Part shown: in pieces, positions 12,263 through 52,199 of the stretch | How the letters are laid out: each line of letters starts with the position of its first letter | How positions within the stretch are numbered: the first letter of the stretch is position 1 | Origin: Gemmatimonadaceae bacterium | GTDB lineage: Bacteria > Gemmatimonadota > Gemmatimonadetes > Gemmatimonadales > Gemmatimonadaceae | Length of the DNA: 52,858 nucleotides | Direction of reading: 5' to 3' | NCBI GenBank assembly: GCA_017881585.1 | Contig: JADGQS010000006.1 | Coordinates: 1-52,858 of the forward strand | The notes under the pieces: model-generated | What the model was told of the DNA's origin: nothing | Databases searched by the model: none | What the model saw: the letters and a program-made list of their open reading frames with translations, nothing else | Position numbers and translations under genes: made by a program

Positions 12263-12765
12263 GCACAGGGCGGTTTCGCAACTTCCTGACAGCTGTCAAC
12301 TCACAGCTGTCAGGTGACAGCTCCCAGAAGCATTACTTCGCTCACGCAGCGGTGTACGCGCTGGTGATCTTCGGCATCGCCTGCGGGCCGTCGCTGTCCA
12401 ACGCCGATATGCGCGCCTGGACCCCGGAATTCGAATTCCGGATCGCGTCCGACGTCGTGCCGCCGCAGGCGCTCGAGCAGATCCATTACACGATCACCGT
12501 GCGTGACAACAAGACGCACGAGCCGATCGCGAACGGGCAGGGAAGAATTTTCGCGACGAACGCCGATGGGCATTCGATCAACGACGGGTTCCGGTACGGC
12601 CCGGAGGTCGGCGTCTACCACGCGACCCTGATGTTCATCACCGCCGGCGACTGGGCCATGAACGTCCAGTTCCGCCGCGACTCCACGAAGGCCCTCCAAA
12701 AACCCGACAACGACTGGCGACAGACCGTACTCGTCGCTGCGGAACCCGGGAGTTCCAAGCCATGA
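12259..12765 (+). CDS. Hypothetical protein, possible lipoprotein
   Basis: 168-aa ORF; ATGA overlap with ino1, or alternative GTG start at 12352 with hydrophobic VYALVIFGIACG. Confidence 0.6.
   Translation: MSTGRFRNFLTAVNSQLSGDSSQKHYFAHAAVYALVIFGIACGPSLSNADMRAWTPEFEFRIASDVVPPQALEQIHYTITVRDNKTHEPIANGQGRIFATNADGHSINDGFRYGPEVGVYHATLMFITAGDWAMNVQFRRDSTKALQKPDNDWRQTVLVAAEPGSSKP
12285..12327. repeat. Heptamer-periodic hairpin element (GCTGTCA type)
   Basis: CCTGACAGCTGT-CAACTC-ACAGCTGTCAGG perfect 12-bp stem, followed by TGACAGCTCCCAG; units gctgtca/actcaca/gctgtca/ggtgaca/gctccca. Confidence 0.8.
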
Positions 12766-15120: not shown

Positions 15121-15129
15121 ATTACTACG

Positions 15130-15157
15130 ATGGAAGATGGAGGATCGAAGATGGAAG
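15130..15157 (+). repeat. Heptamer array ATGGAAG x4 (degenerate)
   Basis: ATGGAAG ATGGAGG ATCGAAG ATGGAAG. Confidence 0.85.
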
Positions 15158-18971: not shown

Positions 18972-19716
18972 CCACGCCATAGCGGACGAAGCCCCCGCCG
19001 CGCCCCAGCACTACGGCACGATCGTCGTCGTCGGCGGCGGCTGTTATGGCAGCTACTACGTGCGCCAGCTCCGGCGCGCGCGCGAGCGCGAGGCGCTCAC
19101 GTGGGAGCGCCTGATCGTCGTCGATCACGACGAGGATTGTGGGGTCGCGCGCGAGCACCCGGCCGATCTCGAGCTGGCCGTCTCCGACTGGTCCGGGTTC
19201 TTCGCGGAGTATCTCGGCGGCGAGGCGCGGGATGTGGACGCGATCGTGCCATCGCCGCTGATGCCGCACCTCCTCTTCGAGTGGCTCGAGCAGCGCGCGC
19301 GCGAGCGGTGGCCGTCGCGGCGCGTTTCGATCGAGATGCCCGGTGCCTTGTCCGGTGTTCCGTGGCAGAAGGAGGGCGGCGAATCCACGCGCTATGTGAG
19401 CTTTGCCGAGTGGATGTGCCCCGTGAACTGCATCGAGCCACGGATTTGCCCGCATACGAGGGATGTGCGCACGTGGAGCCTGCCGCCGTCGGTGCGCGCG
19501 CATGTCGAGGCGGCGCGCGCAAACGGCGAGCAGCTTGACGGGCCTGCGATATTTCACTGCACGCACCGCGCGTACGGCGTGGGGATGATCGACGTGCGGG
19601 ATGTGCTGGGCTCGGAGCGGTTGCTCGTGGAGGCAGCGGAGCGCGGAGAGGCGCGGTTGCTCGTGGGAACGGTTTCGCATTGCCATGGAGCACTGGGGGT
19701 GCTTGTCGTGACGTAA
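18958..19716 (+). CDS. Rossmann-like protein of unknown function with a Cys-rich motif
   Basis: N-terminal TIVVVGGGCYGSYYVRQL; central MCPVNCIEPRICPHTRD. Confidence 0.7.
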   Translation: MTRADHAIADEAPAAPQHYGTIVVVGGGCYGSYYVRQLRRAREREALTWERLIVVDHDEDCGVAREHPADLELAVSDWSGFFAEYLGGEARDVDAIVPSPLMPHLLFEWLEQRARERWPSRRVSIEMPGALSGVPWQKEGGESTRYVSFAEWMCPVNCIEPRICPHTRDVRTWSLPPSVRAHVEAARANGEQLDGPAIFHCTHRAYGVGMIDVRDVLGSERLLVEAAERGEARLLVGTVSHCHGALGVLVVT

Positions 19717-19718
19717 CG

Positions 19719-19850
19719 GCAACGCTCTCAGACGCGAGCTGTCAGTGGACAGCTTTCAGACAACGGCCTCATTACCGACCGGCGCGCGGATCGGTAAAGA
19801 GGCCGTTGTCCGGCGGCTAAGGGCTGGCGGCTGTCGTCTGAGAGCGTTGC
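19719..19850. repeat. Long heptamer-periodic inverted repeat (60-nt arms, 12-nt loop)
   Basis: Arms 19719-19778 and 19791-19850; 16 bp perfect outer stem, 20 bp inner stem with one mismatch, 24-nt divergent centre that keeps heptad AG positions. Confidence 0.88.
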
Positions 19851-19926
19851 AGTTATTTGTTGCCGTTCATTGCCCCGCACTCGCAACCATGCGAAATTGC
19901 GGGAACTTGAATGAGAGGAATCAGCC

Positions 19927-22879: not shown

Positions 22880-24327
22880 TGAGTTCCAAGCCCGCCACCC
22901 GTACCGAGCGCGATCCGCTCGGCGCTCTCGAAGTACCGGCGGACGCGCTGTATGGTGTGCAGACGCTGCGCGCCGTGAAGAACTTTCCGATCAGCGGCCT
23001 GGCGCCGCTTCCGGCGTTCGTGGACGCCGTCGTGCGCATCAAGCGCGCGGCGGCGCTCACCCATAAGGACACCGGGCGCCTCGACGCGCGCCTGGCCGAC
23101 GCGATCGTCGAGGCGTGCGACGAGATTCTCGGCGGCGCGCACCGCGAGCAGTTCGTCGTGGATGTGTACCAGGCAGGTGCGGGCACCTCGCACAACATGA
23201 ACGTCAACGAGGTGCTCGCGAACCGCGCGAACGAGCTGCTCGGTGCGGCGCGCGGCGTGTACGCGCCCGTTCACCCGAACGATCACGTCAACATGGCGCA
23301 GTCGACCAACGACGTGATCCCCACGGCGATACGGCTCGCCATCCTCGGAGAGCTCGCCCCGCTCGCCGCATCGCTCTCGGCGCTGCGCGGATCGCTCGCT
23401 GCGAAGGGAGAGCAATTCGATCACGTGCTCAAGGCCGGCCGCACGCATCTGCAGGACGCGATGCCGATCCGGCTCGGCCAGGAGTTCGTGGCGTGGTCGG
23501 GGACGATCGAGCGTGCGGTGCGGCGGCTCGGCGACGCGGCCGAATACCTGCGCGACCTGGGCATCGGCGGCAGCGCGGTCGGCACGGGCGTGAACGTCGA
23601 GCCGGAGTATCCGTCGCGCATGGTGGCGCATCTGCGCGCCATGACCGGGCTGCAGCTTCGCGCCGGCGATCGCATCCAGCTCATGCAGTCGATGACGGAC
23701 GTCGCGTCGTTCAGCGCGGCACTGCGCTCGCTCGCGCTGGATCTCTCGAAGATCTCGAGTGACCTGCGCCTGCTCGCGAGCGGACCGCGCACCGGTCTCG
23801 ACGAGATCGTGCTGCCCGCGGTGCAGCCGGGCTCGTCGATCATGCCGGGCAAGGTCAATCCGTCGATCGCCGAAATGGTGAACCAAGTCTGCTTCCAGGT
23901 CGTCGGCAACGACACGACGGTGGCGATGGCGACGGAGCACGGGCAGCTCGAGCTGAATGTCATGATGCCCGTGATCGCGCACAACGTGCTCTTCTCGATG
24001 CGGATCCTCAGGAGCGCGGCGCGGACGCTCGACGAGCTCTGCGTGCAGGGCATCGAGGCGAACGTCGAACAATGCGCGTACTGGCTCGAGCGCTCGGCGG
24101 CGCTCGCCACCGCGCTGGCGCCGCGCATCGGATACGCGAAGGCCGCGGCGATCGCGAAGGAATCCGTGAAGAGCGGCGAACTCATCCGCGATCTCGCGGC
24201 TCGCGAGCAGATTCTCCCGCCGGAGGAGCTCGCGAAGGTCCTCGACCTTCGACGAATGACGGAGATTGGGGTGCCGGGGGAAGACGATGGAAGATCGAAG
24301 ATGGAAGATGGATCCGGTTCGCCGTAG
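22879..24327 (+). CDS. Aspartate ammonia-lyase / class II fumarase family
   Basis: GSSIMPGKVNPSIAEMVNQVC signature; VHPNDHVNMAQSTNDVIPTA; TAATG junction with the previous gene. Confidence 0.9.
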   Translation: MSSKPATRTERDPLGALEVPADALYGVQTLRAVKNFPISGLAPLPAFVDAVVRIKRAAALTHKDTGRLDARLADAIVEACDEILGGAHREQFVVDVYQAGAGTSHNMNVNEVLANRANELLGAARGVYAPVHPNDHVNMAQSTNDVIPTAIRLAILGELAPLAASLSALRGSLAAKGEQFDHVLKAGRTHLQDAMPIRLGQEFVAWSGTIERAVRRLGDAAEYLRDLGIGGSAVGTGVNVEPEYPSRMVAHLRAMTGLQLRAGDRIQLMQSMTDVASFSAALRSLALDLSKISSDLRLLASGPRTGLDEIVLPAVQPGSSIMPGKVNPSIAEMVNQVCFQVVGNDTTVAMATEHGQLELNVMMPVIAHNVLFSMRILRSAARTLDELCVQGIEANVEQCAYWLERSAALATALAPRIGYAKAAAIAKESVKSGELIRDLAAREQILPPEELAKVLDLRRMTEIGVPGEDDGRSKMEDGSGSP

Positions 24328-24354
24328 TCATCTTCCATCTTCCATCTTCCATCG
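24285..24354. repeat. Heptamer hairpin (GATGGAA type), 26-nt arms, 18-nt loop
   Basis: CGATGGAAGATCGAAGATGGAAGATG / CATCTTCCATCTTCCATCTTCCATCG, one mismatch. Confidence 0.92.
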
Positions 24355-24472
24355 TGGGTGATCGGTCGCGGGTCTACTCGCCTTTTTTCAGTCTCTCCCG
24401 TAAACTGGACTACATGCGCATTACGACCTGGGCCGAGTACGGCGTGGGACCTCCCATGCTGCAGGGCTGAGC

Positions 24473-25036: not shown

Positions 25037-25056
25037 CCACCTTACCGGCGTAAAAA

Positions 25057-25118
25057 GTCATTGGTCATTGGTCGTTGGTCTTTAGTTGACCAAACACCAA
25101 TGACCAATGACCAATGAC
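25057..25118. repeat. Heptamer hairpin (TTGGTCA type), 23-nt arms, 16-nt loop
   Basis: GTCATTGGTCATTGGTCGTTGGT / ACCAATGACCAATGACCAATGAC, one mismatch. Confidence 0.92.
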
Positions 25119-25164
25119 AGATTACTCGTATTAGGCCATCCCCTCGCGCATTTCCATCCCTGAG

Positions 25165-25248
25165 TGCCGAAGGCGGGACTCGAACCCGCACGGGCTTGCA
25201 CCCACTGGCTCCTGAAGCCAGCGCGTCTACCAGTTCCACCACTCCGGC
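25165..25248 (-). tRNA. tRNA-Leu (CAG anticodon), CCA not encoded
   Basis: Minus strand GCCGGAGTGGTGGAACTGGTAGACGCGCTGGCTTCAGGAGCCAG...GGGTTCGAGTCCCGCCTTCGGCA; acceptor stem GCCGGAG/CTTCGGC, anticodon loop TTCAGGA, long variable arm. Confidence 0.95.
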
Positions 25249-25811: not shown

Positions 25812-27067
25812 TGTGCGCGCCCTTCCTGCTCGCGTTTGTCCTGCACGCGCAGGACAGCGTCCACGTGCGTGGCGTCGCGCGCGACACGACACTCGCCGTC
25901 GTGTCGACGCCCGCGGGCGGCGCGCTGCGCGCCGACGTCGTGCTGCCGCTCATCGGCGGGTCCGTGTCCGCCTCGACGACTGGCCGCTGGAAGATCGATG
26001 CGCCGGGCGTGAGCTTCACGCTCGTCGATGGCGTGCCGTTCGCGACGACCAAGGACGGCCCGATTCCGCTCGCCGCGGCCCCGATCCTCCGCAACGGCGC
26101 GCTCCTCCTGCCGCTGCAGGTCCTCGCCGACATCGTGCCGCGCATCGGCAACCGTGTCGTCTGGGACGCCGAGAGCCGCGAACTGCGCGCCTTCAGGAAC
26201 CTCGGGAAGAACGCGAACGCCTCGTCGCCGCCCGCTGCGCCGCGCACGCCCGAGCCGCGAGCCGCGAGGACACCGGCGGCCGCCACCGCGTCGACGCCGG
26301 CGCGTTCCTCCGCGCCGTCGCCGCGGCACCGGCTGATCGTCGTGGATGCCGGACACGGCGGCGTGGACCCCGGCATGCACGGCCCCATCGGCCAGCGCAC
26401 CACGCTCTACGAGAAGGACATCACGCTCGACGTGGCGAAGAAACTCGCGCACGAACTCGAAGGCCGCGGCGTTGGCGTGCTCATGACGCGCACCACCGAT
26501 ACGCTCATCGCCCTCGGTGATCGCGGCAGGATCGCGAACGCGGCCAAGGGCGACCTGTTCATCTCCATTCACGTGAACGCGGCCAACCTCAACTGGAAGG
26601 AACCCGGCGCCGCCCGCGGATTCGAGACCTACTTCCTCGCCGAGGCGAAGACCGAAGACGAGCGCCGCGTCGCGAGGATGGAGAACGAGGTCGTTCGATT
26701 CGAGAGCAGCGGCGATCCCGCGCAGGAGGGCGGTCTCGGTTTCATCCTGAAGGACATGGCGCAGAACGAACAGCTGCGCGAGTCGAGCGACCTCGCGGAG
26801 ACGATCCAGTCGCGCCTCAAGCGGATCCATCCGGGACCGAGCAGGGGAGTGAAGCAGGCCGGGTTCATGGTGCTGGTGACGGCGTTCATGCCCTCGGTGC
26901 TGGTCGAGATCGGATTCGGAACGAACCCGGCGGAGGCGGCCTACATCTCGGGCGAGGCAGGGCAGCGCGCGATCGCAAGCGCGGTCGCGGACGCGGCGAT
27001 GGAATACCTCGGGCGTTACGAGCGTCGCGTGACCGGCACCTCCACGCTTCAGGACCCCCCGAAGTGA
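25808..27067 (+). CDS. N-acetylmuramoyl-L-alanine amidase (Amidase_3)
   Basis: [38 protein letters not shown]. Confidence 0.9.
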
Positions 27068-28029
27068 CTGAGAACCGCAGCATCGCGGGCGCGAATCCGC
27101 CGTACGATTCGCCCGCGCTCAAGACGCATGCGGCCGGTCTCGACTTCCAGAATCCGCTCCTGCTCGCGGCCGGCACCGCGGCATACGGCCGCGAGCTCGC
27201 GGAGGTGATGGTCCTCGATCGCCTCGGCGGACTGGTCACGAAAGCCGTGAGCGTCGAGCCGCGCGATGGGGCGCCCGCTCCGCGCGTGACGGAGTTCGAC
27301 GGCGGGATGATCAACGCCGTCGGGCTCGCGAACCCCGGTGTGGACGAGGTGAAGGCGACGGAGCTGCCGTGGCTCGCGAAAGAACTCAGGCACGCGCGGG
27401 TGATCGTGAACGTGATCGGCCGCATCGTCGAGGATTTCGGCGAGGTCGTCGCGCGCCTCGACGACTCCCAAGGTCTTCACGCGTACGAGCTGAACGTGAG
27501 CTGTCCGAACACGCGCGCCGGCGGACTCGAGTTCGGCGCCGATGCCGCGTCGCTCACGGCGGTGATCACGCGCGCCCGCGCCGCGACGCGGCGTCCGCTC
27601 TTCGTGAAACTCTCGCCGACGCTCCCCGACATCGGTTTCACGGCGCGCTGCGCGGTGGACGCCGGCGCCGACGGCATCAGCGTGGTGAACACGATGCCCG
27701 GGCTCGTCATCGACCTGGAGACGCGCCGCCCGAGGCTCGGATTCGGGAGCGGCGGCGTGAGCGGGCCGGGACTGCGGCCCGTGGGCGTGCTCGCGACGTG
27801 GAAGGTGAGGAACGTCGTGCCGGTGCCGATCATCGGACTCGGCGGCATCGGGAGCGCGGAGCACGCGCTGCAATATCTCATCGCCGGCGCGACACTCGTC
27901 GCGGTCGGAACGGCGGCACTCGCGGACCCGCGGGTGCCCGAAAAGATCGTGCGCGATCTCGCGGCCTGGTGTGCGCTTCATGACGTGCAGCGACTGGCGG
28001 ATCTCGTCGGCACGCTTGAGTGGAGCTGA
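27064..28029 (+). CDS. pyrD: Dihydroorotate dehydrogenase
   Basis: ELNVSCPNTRAGGLEFG, FVKLSPTLPDI, GVSGPGLRPV, GLGGIGSAEHA; GTG start. Confidence 0.93.
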   Translation: MTENRSIAGANPPYDSPALKTHAAGLDFQNPLLLAAGTAAYGRELAEVMVLDRLGGLVTKAVSVEPRDGAPAPRVTEFDGGMINAVGLANPGVDEVKATELPWLAKELRHARVIVNVIGRIVEDFGEVVARLDDSQGLHAYELNVSCPNTRAGGLEFGADAASLTAVITRARAATRRPLFVKLSPTLPDIGFTARCAVDAGADGISVVNTMPGLVIDLETRRPRLGFGSGGVSGPGLRPVGVLATWKVRNVVPVPIIGLGGIGSAEHALQYLIAGATLVAVGTAALADPRVPEKIVRDLAAWCALHDVQRLADLVGTLEWS

Positions 28030-28035
28030 AAAAAC

Positions 28036-28224
28036 GGCGACGGGCGGCGCGTGAGGGGCGACTTGGCGAAGAGCGACGCGTGAGGAGTGAGGAGACCGTC
28101 TCCTCGCCCCTCACGCGTCGCTCTTCGCCCAATTGCCCCTCACGCGTCGCTCCTCGCTGTTTCGAAAACCTCTCACCGGTCGCTCATCGCTCTTCGCCCA
28201 GCCCCTCACCCGTCGCTCGTCACC
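28036..28224. repeat. Large heptamer-periodic array with internal 31-nt inverted repeat
   Basis: Left RGYGANN heptamers (ggcgacg ggcggcg cgtgagg ggcgact t ggcgaag agcgacg cgtgagg agtgagg), right NNTCRCY heptamers in four clusters; hairpin 28065-28095/28099-28129 with two mismatches. Confidence 0.9.
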
Positions 28225-28240
28225 GTTGTAATTTTGAAGT

Positions 28241-28945
28241 ATGAGTCCCCGTCCGCAGCCCATCATCGCGCTCGACGTTCCGTCCCTCGCCGACGCGCGC
28301 GCGCTCATCGCGACCCTCGGGGCCAGGGCGGACTTCTACAAGGTGGGTCTGCAGCTGTTCAGCGCCGAGGGGCCGCGGGTGGTCGAGTGGCTCCACTCGG
28401 AGGGAAAGCGCGTCTTCCTCGACCTGAAGCTGCACGACATTCCGTCGACCGTGCGGAAGGCCGCCGCGAGCGCGAAGCGCCTGAACGTGGCGCTCCTCAC
28501 GATCCACGGGCTTGGCGGCGAGGCGATGGTGCGCGCGGCGGTCGAAGGCGCGGGCGAACACACCGGCGTGCTGGTCGTCACGGTGCTCACCTCGATGGAC
28601 CTCACGACGGCGAGCGCGGCGCTGGGACGTCCCCTCGCCTCGCTGCGCGACGAGGTGCTACGGCTCGCGGCGCTGGCCGCGGGCGCCGGAGCGCACGGCG
28701 TGGTGTGCGCGGGCGCCGAATGCGCGGCGGTCCGCGCGGCACACGGCACGCGGCTCGAGCCGCTCGTGCCCGGCATTCGCACCGCTGCCACGGCGGCTGC
28801 CATTGCGGATGACGACCAGTCGCGGGTGGTTACGCCCGAGGCGGCGTCGAAGGCGGGCGCGGCGTATGTAGTGGTCGGACGCGCGGTGACCGCGGCGCCT
28901 GACCCGCTCGCGGCGCTCGAGGGAGTCCTGACCAGGCTCTCCTGA
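28241..28945 (+). CDS. pyrF: Orotidine 5'-phosphate decarboxylase
   Basis: IIALDVPSLADA, FLDLKLHDIPSTV, VPGIR. Confidence 0.93.
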   Translation: MSPRPQPIIALDVPSLADARALIATLGARADFYKVGLQLFSAEGPRVVEWLHSEGKRVFLDLKLHDIPSTVRKAAASAKRLNVALLTIHGLGGEAMVRAAVEGAGEHTGVLVVTVLTSMDLTTASAALGRPLASLRDEVLRLAALAAGAGAHGVVCAGAECAAVRAAHGTRLEPLVPGIRTAATAAAIADDDQSRVVTPEAASKAGAAYVVVGRAVTAAPDPLAALEGVLTRLS

Positions 28946-32444: not shown

Positions 32445-32470
32445 TAGAAGCTCTTCGCACGGTCAAAGAG

Positions 32471-32494
32471 GGGAGCCCAGAGGCTCCCTTTTTT
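32471..32494 (+). terminator. Intrinsic terminator after the ribosomal block
   Basis: GGGAGCC-CAGA-GGCTCCC followed by TTTTTT. Confidence 0.9.
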
Positions 32495-32507
32495 GTATGT
32501 GAGATGA

Positions 32508-32568
32508 ATGCGGGATCCGGGATTTCGACCCAATGCAGAATGCAGAAAAGGAATCCCGCATTCCGCAT
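32508..32568. repeat. Heptamer hairpin (ATGCGGG type)
   Basis: ATGCGGGATCCGGGATTTC / GGAATCCCGCATTCCGCAT (three mismatches in 19), with ATGCAGA ATGCAGA in the loop. Confidence 0.82.
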
Positions 32569-32617
32569 CCCGCAGTCACGGGGTGCAGAGTGGTCGCCAT
32601 CCAGTGCAGATTAGTAA

Positions 32618-39420: not shown

Positions 39421-39475
39421 AGCGTTACCACGGAGCACACGGAAAACGGCAAAGGCGACAACTGGTGGTAACGCT
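39421..39475. repeat. Inverted repeat between convergent genes, possibly related to the heptamer hairpins
   Basis: AGCGTTACCAC ... GTGGTAACGCT (11 bp perfect). Confidence 0.7.
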
Positions 39476-52064: not shown

Positions 52065-52106
52065 GAAGATGGAAGATGGAAGATGGAAGATGGAAGATGG
52101 AAGATG
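52065..52106 (+). repeat. Perfect heptamer tandem array, GAAGATG x6
   Basis: Six contiguous identical GAAGATG units, two nt after the secA stop. Confidence 0.95.
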
Positions 52107-52199
52107 AAAGGCGGTGCGCGGGCGGGACGACTTCCAAATTCGACATGGCTGCGGTTATTCGATGACGCGGAGGGCATGCACCGGGCGTAGACTCGGCGC

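Follow-up and report, generated by a model that had tools for sequence, protein, structure and literature searches.

A heptad-repeat hairpin between pyrD and pyrF belongs to a dispersed palindrome family whose arms also flank genes for the S23/IVP protein

REP/REPIN sequences are short intergenic palindromes dispersed by a protein, RAYT, that is thought to act in trans, and they occur in solitary and gene-carrying forms. The intervening sequence (IVS) of Coxiella is bounded by 28-bp terminal repeats, with tandem heptamers next to its S23 open reading frame; IVS insertions in rRNA are tolerated, as RNase III cuts them out, and the role of the S23/IVP protein has been described as unknown (PMC4990558). 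Avd of diversity-generating retroelements is a reported homologue of the PF05635 fold to which S23/IVP belongs (PMC10053308), and IVP genes in cas loci were earlier counted among CRISPR-associated functions (PMC3936711). Degenerate heptamers are also described in the STRR repeats of heterocystous cyanobacteria and in tRNA-Leu intron P6b, where they fall into the classes TDNGATT and NNTGAGT, with a conserved core and two complementary sides that form hairpins (PMC4476775); polymerase slippage has been offered as the reason why such repeats are so abundant in bacteria (PMC4692102). Heptamer repeats, cas-locus IVP genes and IVS elements each have a literature of their own (PMC4692102, PMC4679880, PMC4476775, PMC4990558, PMC3936711). 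In the openly searchable literature we found no published link between heptamer repeats and S23/IVP, and the open STRR and P6b literature likewise yielded none.

The window considered here is the whole stretch of 52,858 nt that was analysed, from a Gemmatimonadota genome (G000; a 3.09-Mb assembly in 240 contigs, about 90% complete). An earlier note on the window had pointed to a two-sided heptamer array at 28036-28224, in the 211-nt gap between pyrD and pyrF. We read this array, with a probability of about 0.7, as a non-autonomous palindromic mobile repeat (MITE-like or REPIN-like) that has spread recently and derives from IVP-carrying elements, of which the classical 23S IVSs would be one form. 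The array and its neighbours are laid out as follows.

27064-28029, plus strand: pyrD, the upstream neighbour (gene name as given in the earlier note)
28032-28162, no strand assigned: palindromic core, arms 28032-28096 and 28098-28162 about a single central base, centre GAGACCGTCTC (inverted-repeat search)
28036-28091, plus strand: left arm, RGYGANN heptads (from the sequence; aligned over 31 copies, phase test)
28104-28158, plus strand: right arm, NNTCRCY (reverse-complement) heptads, with a tandem half copy at 28128-28158 (direct-repeat search; TRF 28118-28218)
28168-28224, plus strand: two more tandem right-arm modules, 28168-28198 and 28194-28224 (repeat search; comparison with the stub at L057)
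28241-28945, plus strand: pyrF, the downstream neighbour (context)

The sequence reads on both sides as had been described. The palindrome proposed in the earlier note also stands, but its size does not: in place of a 31-nt inverted repeat with a 3-nt loop, the inverted-repeat search gave arms of 65 nt, about twice as long, 86% complementary around a 1-nt centre. The right arm is present four times in register, at 28099, 28128, 28168 and 28194. The heptad periodicity survived statistical testing, with a lag-7 identity of 0.52 that exceeds all of 2000 shuffles (mean 0.29, maximum 0.40). Structure prediction, which the note had proposed as a check, gave an RNA fold of -130 kcal/mol (z = -11 versus dinucleotide shuffles). 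An Rfam scan of the window returned a single tRNA only, the array matching no family above gathering score. A scan of 28000-28300 on both strands, which covered the pyrD-pyrF copy only, found no terminator-like site of the kind with a T tract after a GC-rich stem.

The interpretation in the earlier note proved right in part. It had treated the array as peculiar to the pyrD-pyrF gap; instead, the array is a single member of a dispersed family. In G000 the palindrome occurs at no fewer than 43 loci (about 40 found by blastn, 3 more by a core pattern), the counts being drawn from searches and examined stretches. Core-pattern matches numbered 113 in G000, 70 in its closest relative, the sister genome G011, 25 in G014 and 11 in G002, against 0-2 for a reversed control pattern in these four genomes; the remaining genus members had 1-9 matches, against 0-5 for the control. 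A wider collection of genome contigs yielded five core-pattern matches, two of which (Thermoplasmata and Prevotella) resemble chance hits in other sequence. Viral contigs contained no exact core match and a phage collection no IVP match, and a phage origin of the hairpin was rejected on these grounds. The palindrome copies are intergenic and are commonest between converging gene ends: among 30 copies with both neighbours called, 14 were in convergent, 11 in tandem and 5 in divergent contexts, and the convergent share far exceeded that of other gaps (11/146, p = 1e-6).

Sites of the family differ between genomes. With pyrF orthologues we located the corresponding gap in 17 relatives; in G002 and G014 it is short and the repeat is absent, and in G011 it holds a stub (L057) that retains only the outer end of the 28168-28224 side. 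Matching 34 G000 sites to their orthologous G011 regions showed that about a quarter (9/34) hold the family there. Some counterparts are short and repeat-free (L003/L083, L020/L092, L050/L103), and others besides pyrD-pyrF are stubs retaining outer ends (L045/L100, L010/L095). Still others hold different hairpins, with GGAAGCC heptads (L111), ATGCGGG heptads (L082, L085, L097) or a CCACGGATTT hairpin (L098, L109). Such filled, empty, stub and replaced sites indicate that the family moves, and that sites of this kind see turnover among several families. By eye we recognised no target-site duplication at the handful of clean empty sites. In G011, L098, L109 and L089 represent a distinct intergenic hairpin family, CCACGGATTTACGCGGA...TCCGTGGTA, often around a GGGGGAAC-type stem and with no obvious heptad period.

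Copies at unlinked sites have in common a 115-nt core whose centre and polarity are fixed; the centre is of type GAGACNGTCTC or GAGAACGTCTC, and nearly all copies have ungapped 57-nt arms. Alignment of 31 copies bore out the claim that core positions of the heptad are conserved while outer ones vary: the phase-2 G of the RGYGANN register was present in 62 of 62 arms for each of seven heptads, and phases 1, 3 and 7 were variable. A permutation test of the phase effect gave p = 0.01, and no such effect was seen with frames of 5, 6, 8 or 9. We agree with the earlier note that simple slippage is inadequate to explain such phase-specific conservation in a two-sided array. The register shifts once by one base, between heptads 3 and 4, where there is an extra T in ...GAYYTGGCGA.... 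The arms can be told apart by their signatures, GACTTGG...AGCGAGGAGAC in one and GATCTGG...AGTGAGGAGAA in the other, which gives the element a polarity (tested against 60 re-paired null sets). Arm-to-arm gene conversion was rejected, as the two arms keep these distinct signatures in fixed polarity.

The hairpins might instead be bidirectional terminators or 3'-end stabilisers, kept for ending or protecting transcripts, with different sequences able to serve one site. The enrichment in convergent gaps, the very stable fold and the different hairpin found in the sister genome at several orthologous sites all favour this possibility, yet the pairing within copies does not. Arms of the same element were no more complementary or alike than arms drawn from different elements: 1446 Watson-Crick pairs were observed against 1457 expected from re-paired arms, compensatory changes were rare (19 among about 300), and G-U was not favoured over A-C. 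Five copies lie between divergent genes, and the pyrD-pyrF copy, which has no terminator-like tail, sits between two same-strand genes whose gap in relatives does without it. We consider a terminator or stabiliser role unlikely. On the same pairing results we rejected a selected RNA structure in single copies. Low compensatory change, together with the lack of within-element arm likeness, rather argues that the hairpin is copied as a unit from a master copy and then decays. On the evidence of the aligned copies, the hairpin is inherited from that master copy and not maintained by RNA-level selection, single copies bearing no sign of selection for pairing.

The mobile-repeat reading gains from larger relatives of the family, about 550-800 nt long, in which arms of this kind surround an IVP gene. 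In L120 of G011 the arms are about 570 nt apart, and the open reading frame between them encodes a 23S_rRNA_IVP/S23 four-helix-bundle protein (PF05635, E 8e-15; TIGR02436, E 1.5e-17), a relative of XCC0516, whose structure is solved (2GSC, E 9e-6). This element (G011:C133) has an orthologue in G000 (G000:C182, L144), 98.6% identical in DNA, the six changes giving a dN/dS of about 0.17. Solitary loci of the pyrD-pyrF family that match the arms of L144 and L120 number 26-35, so solitary and gene-carrying copies in the same genome share their ends, as in MITE-like families. The pyrD-pyrF array is not a degraded protein gene, the case that the earlier note had named as refuting its reading; the protein-coding relative is a separate full-length element, with the four-helix-bundle gene between related arms. 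Four other IVP elements have arms that match other solitary hairpins, one of them a palindrome within the window at 19714-19855. G000 has seven IVP genes, all 7 with inverted repeats visible by eye, mostly of short tandem units and different in sequence in each. Where G000 has one of its IVP elements, G011 has instead a solitary hairpin belonging to a different family. L140 (1402-1979) and L267 (1855-2429), from the two species, carry their IVP gene segment in opposite orientations within outer arms that have not moved, as would be expected from recombination between inverted arms.

Several other hairpins and repeats were noted. The intergenic palindrome at 19714-19855 has 71-nt arms, 76% complementary, with AGCTGTC-type heptads, and both arms match the flank of the G011 IVP gene L161. 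Heptad arrays of GATGGAA/GAAGATG form a full inverted hairpin at 24284-24355 and are one-sided at 15129-15157 and 52065-52110. A CTGACAG/CTGTCAG heptad hairpin lies at 12286-12322, and G011 has one of the same type (L269) where G000 has an IVP element at the orthologous position. At 32470-32573 a canonical intrinsic terminator, GGGGAGCCCAGAGGCTCCCTTTTTT, is directly followed by a heptad hairpin of the ATGCGGG type, which also flanks the IVP gene L146. A TCATTGG/TGACCAA heptad hairpin at 25050-25125 lies near a tRNA gene (25165-25248); its heptad resembles one that we take to be from the cyanobacterial STRR literature. An 82-nt convergent gap contains the hairpin GCGTTACCAC...GTGGTAACGC at 39422-39474, preceded by an A tract. 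In locus L002 (2134-2320) a 12-nt unit is repeated in tandem (CCGGCGTCACCA / CCGGCGTCACTG), in a region that may be coding.

Inverted heptads accompany IVP genes beyond this family as well. Flanks could be scored at 57 IVP loci of Gemmatimonadota; the inverted-repeat score was above 30 at 48 of these, compared with 4 of 83 control genes (the threshold being about the 95th percentile of those controls), and 36 exceeded the control maximum. A second control, 73 genes in the same kind of loci, scored a mean of 23, with a 95th percentile of 29 and a maximum of 54. The best arm period was 7 in 67 of 93 arms, where about 9 would be expected by chance. Arms of separate IVP loci are mostly unrelated in sequence, and at several other IVP loci of the genus and phylum inverted repeats did not rise above background. 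Of the 16 IVP genes carried on named plasmids, most of them cyanobacterial, 15 had adjoining inverted repeats, with period 7 on both sides in 13 of the 16; some are in cas or T4SS operons. A plasmid-borne IVP gene of Azospirillum (L211) is located within a 23S rRNA gene, as a classical intervening sequence whose stems are made of heptads. On three cyanobacterial plasmids (L204, L208, L209), IVP genes with repeat arms were seen between cas genes (cas6-cas4, cas10-cmr3).

Solitary heptad arrays were surveyed as well. Two IVP-free genus members (297 kb each) had lag-7 arrays in 0 of 236 intergenic gaps. Apart from the pyrD-pyrF family, such arrays were found in 4 of 80 gaps in G014, 10 of 56 in the G000 loci and 9 of 41 in the G011 loci, in total 23 of 177 in these three IVP-rich genomes. 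The G000 and G011 loci were chosen near elements, so the comparison for G014, which has 11 IVP genes, is the only one free of ascertainment (4/80 versus 0/236, p = 0.004). Few genomes enter the comparison of IVP-rich with IVP-free as a whole. A stricter lag-7 threshold left none in G014 and two arrays in the window; it was relaxed alike for all genomes and for control lags. A 50-kb stretch of one IVP-bearing Nostoc plasmid contained no solitary heptad arrays.

These results bear on two further alternatives. The first is a pure replication artefact, in which polymerase slippage and fold-back template switching make heptad palindromes and no protein takes part. Many bacteria have heptamers in excess, a slippage mechanism acting on the 7 nt that sit within the polymerase has been proposed (PMC4692102, PMC4679880), and the tandem arm copies and stubs seen here show that local slippage or deletion does occur. 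An artefact would nevertheless have to place a 115-nt core of fixed centre and polarity at unlinked sites, leave the arms within an element unhomogenised, tie heptad arms to IVP genes in two phyla and spare both IVP-free relatives, and we regard it as quite improbable. The second, that IVP genes are passengers inserted into pre-existing heptad hairpins that serve as target and are not part of the element, can point to classical IVSs located in hairpin regions of 23S rRNA and to solitary hairpins outnumbering IVP elements, but it is very improbable, with heptads directly adjoining the IVP gene in cas operons, T4SS operons and the Azospirillum 23S gene, and a whole IVP element present with its arms in one species and absent in the other.

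Our preferred reading remains a mobile repeat. The pyrD-pyrF family is dispersed, occupies polymorphic sites, is copied as whole units with fixed polarity and matches the arms of gene-carrying elements, and IVP genes are associated with inverted heptads in both Gemmatimonadota and cyanobacteria. Its autonomous relatives are likely the 550-800-nt IVP elements. A role of IVP in moving the hairpin is one that we infer from the sequences: full-length elements would encode IVP, which may recognise the heptad hairpin and drive the copying of short derivatives in trans. Against IVP as the mover, the protein carries no known nuclease or recombinase domain. Insertions would be tolerated because most sit at the 3' ends of genes, and a hairpin in the RNA there may be cut (e.g. 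by RNase III) or be harmless; such tolerance is the simplest explanation of the gene-end placement, much as rRNA IVSs are tolerated through RNase III excision. Movement would need neither a resident Y1 transposase nor a reverse transcriptase. Y1_Tnp (PF01797) had no match in the G000 assembly, about 90% complete, with control genomes positive, and we rejected a RAYT/REP system for this reason. RVT_1 (PF00078) was absent from G000 and from 16 of 17 searched genus relatives, and a retro-element with a resident reverse transcriptase was rejected likewise.

Among known systems, the 23S rRNA IVSs with an S23/IVP open reading frame (Leptospira, Coxiella and others) resemble the elements described here in having an inverted-repeat stem around a PF05635 gene. 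The elements here differ in being intergenic and present in many copies. The pyrD-pyrF copy has the long complementary stem of an IVS; it is not at a 23S rRNA site and has no S23/IVP gene, and since it lacks these two defining features we describe it as a non-autonomous relative, not an IVS. Classical IVSs, with their location in 23S rRNA genes, seem to be elements of this kind that occupy another site, and the cas-locus IVP genes look like insertions of these elements. The family resembles REP/REPIN in consisting of dispersed short extragenic palindromes; it differs in that Y1_Tnp is missing, the partner gene encodes a four-helix bundle and the arms are heptad arrays. Avd systems differ by their reverse transcriptase, none being detected in G000. 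The STRR and P6b repeats share with the pyrD-pyrF family degenerate heptads that form hairpins, with unrelated sequences, and cyanobacterial plasmids bear IVP genes flanked by STRR-like heptads. Tentatively, S23/IVP proteins may be the mobility factors of widespread elements that end in inverted heptad arrays and need no Y1 transposase or reverse transcriptase in the genome, which would unite 23S IVSs, operon IVP genes including those of cas loci, cyanobacterial STRR and the Gemmatimonadota hairpins. The consistent physical link between heptamers and IVP, seen across two phyla and once within a 23S rRNA gene, offers a testable common cause for both, and suggests IVP as a common partner of two long-puzzling kinds of bacterial DNA.
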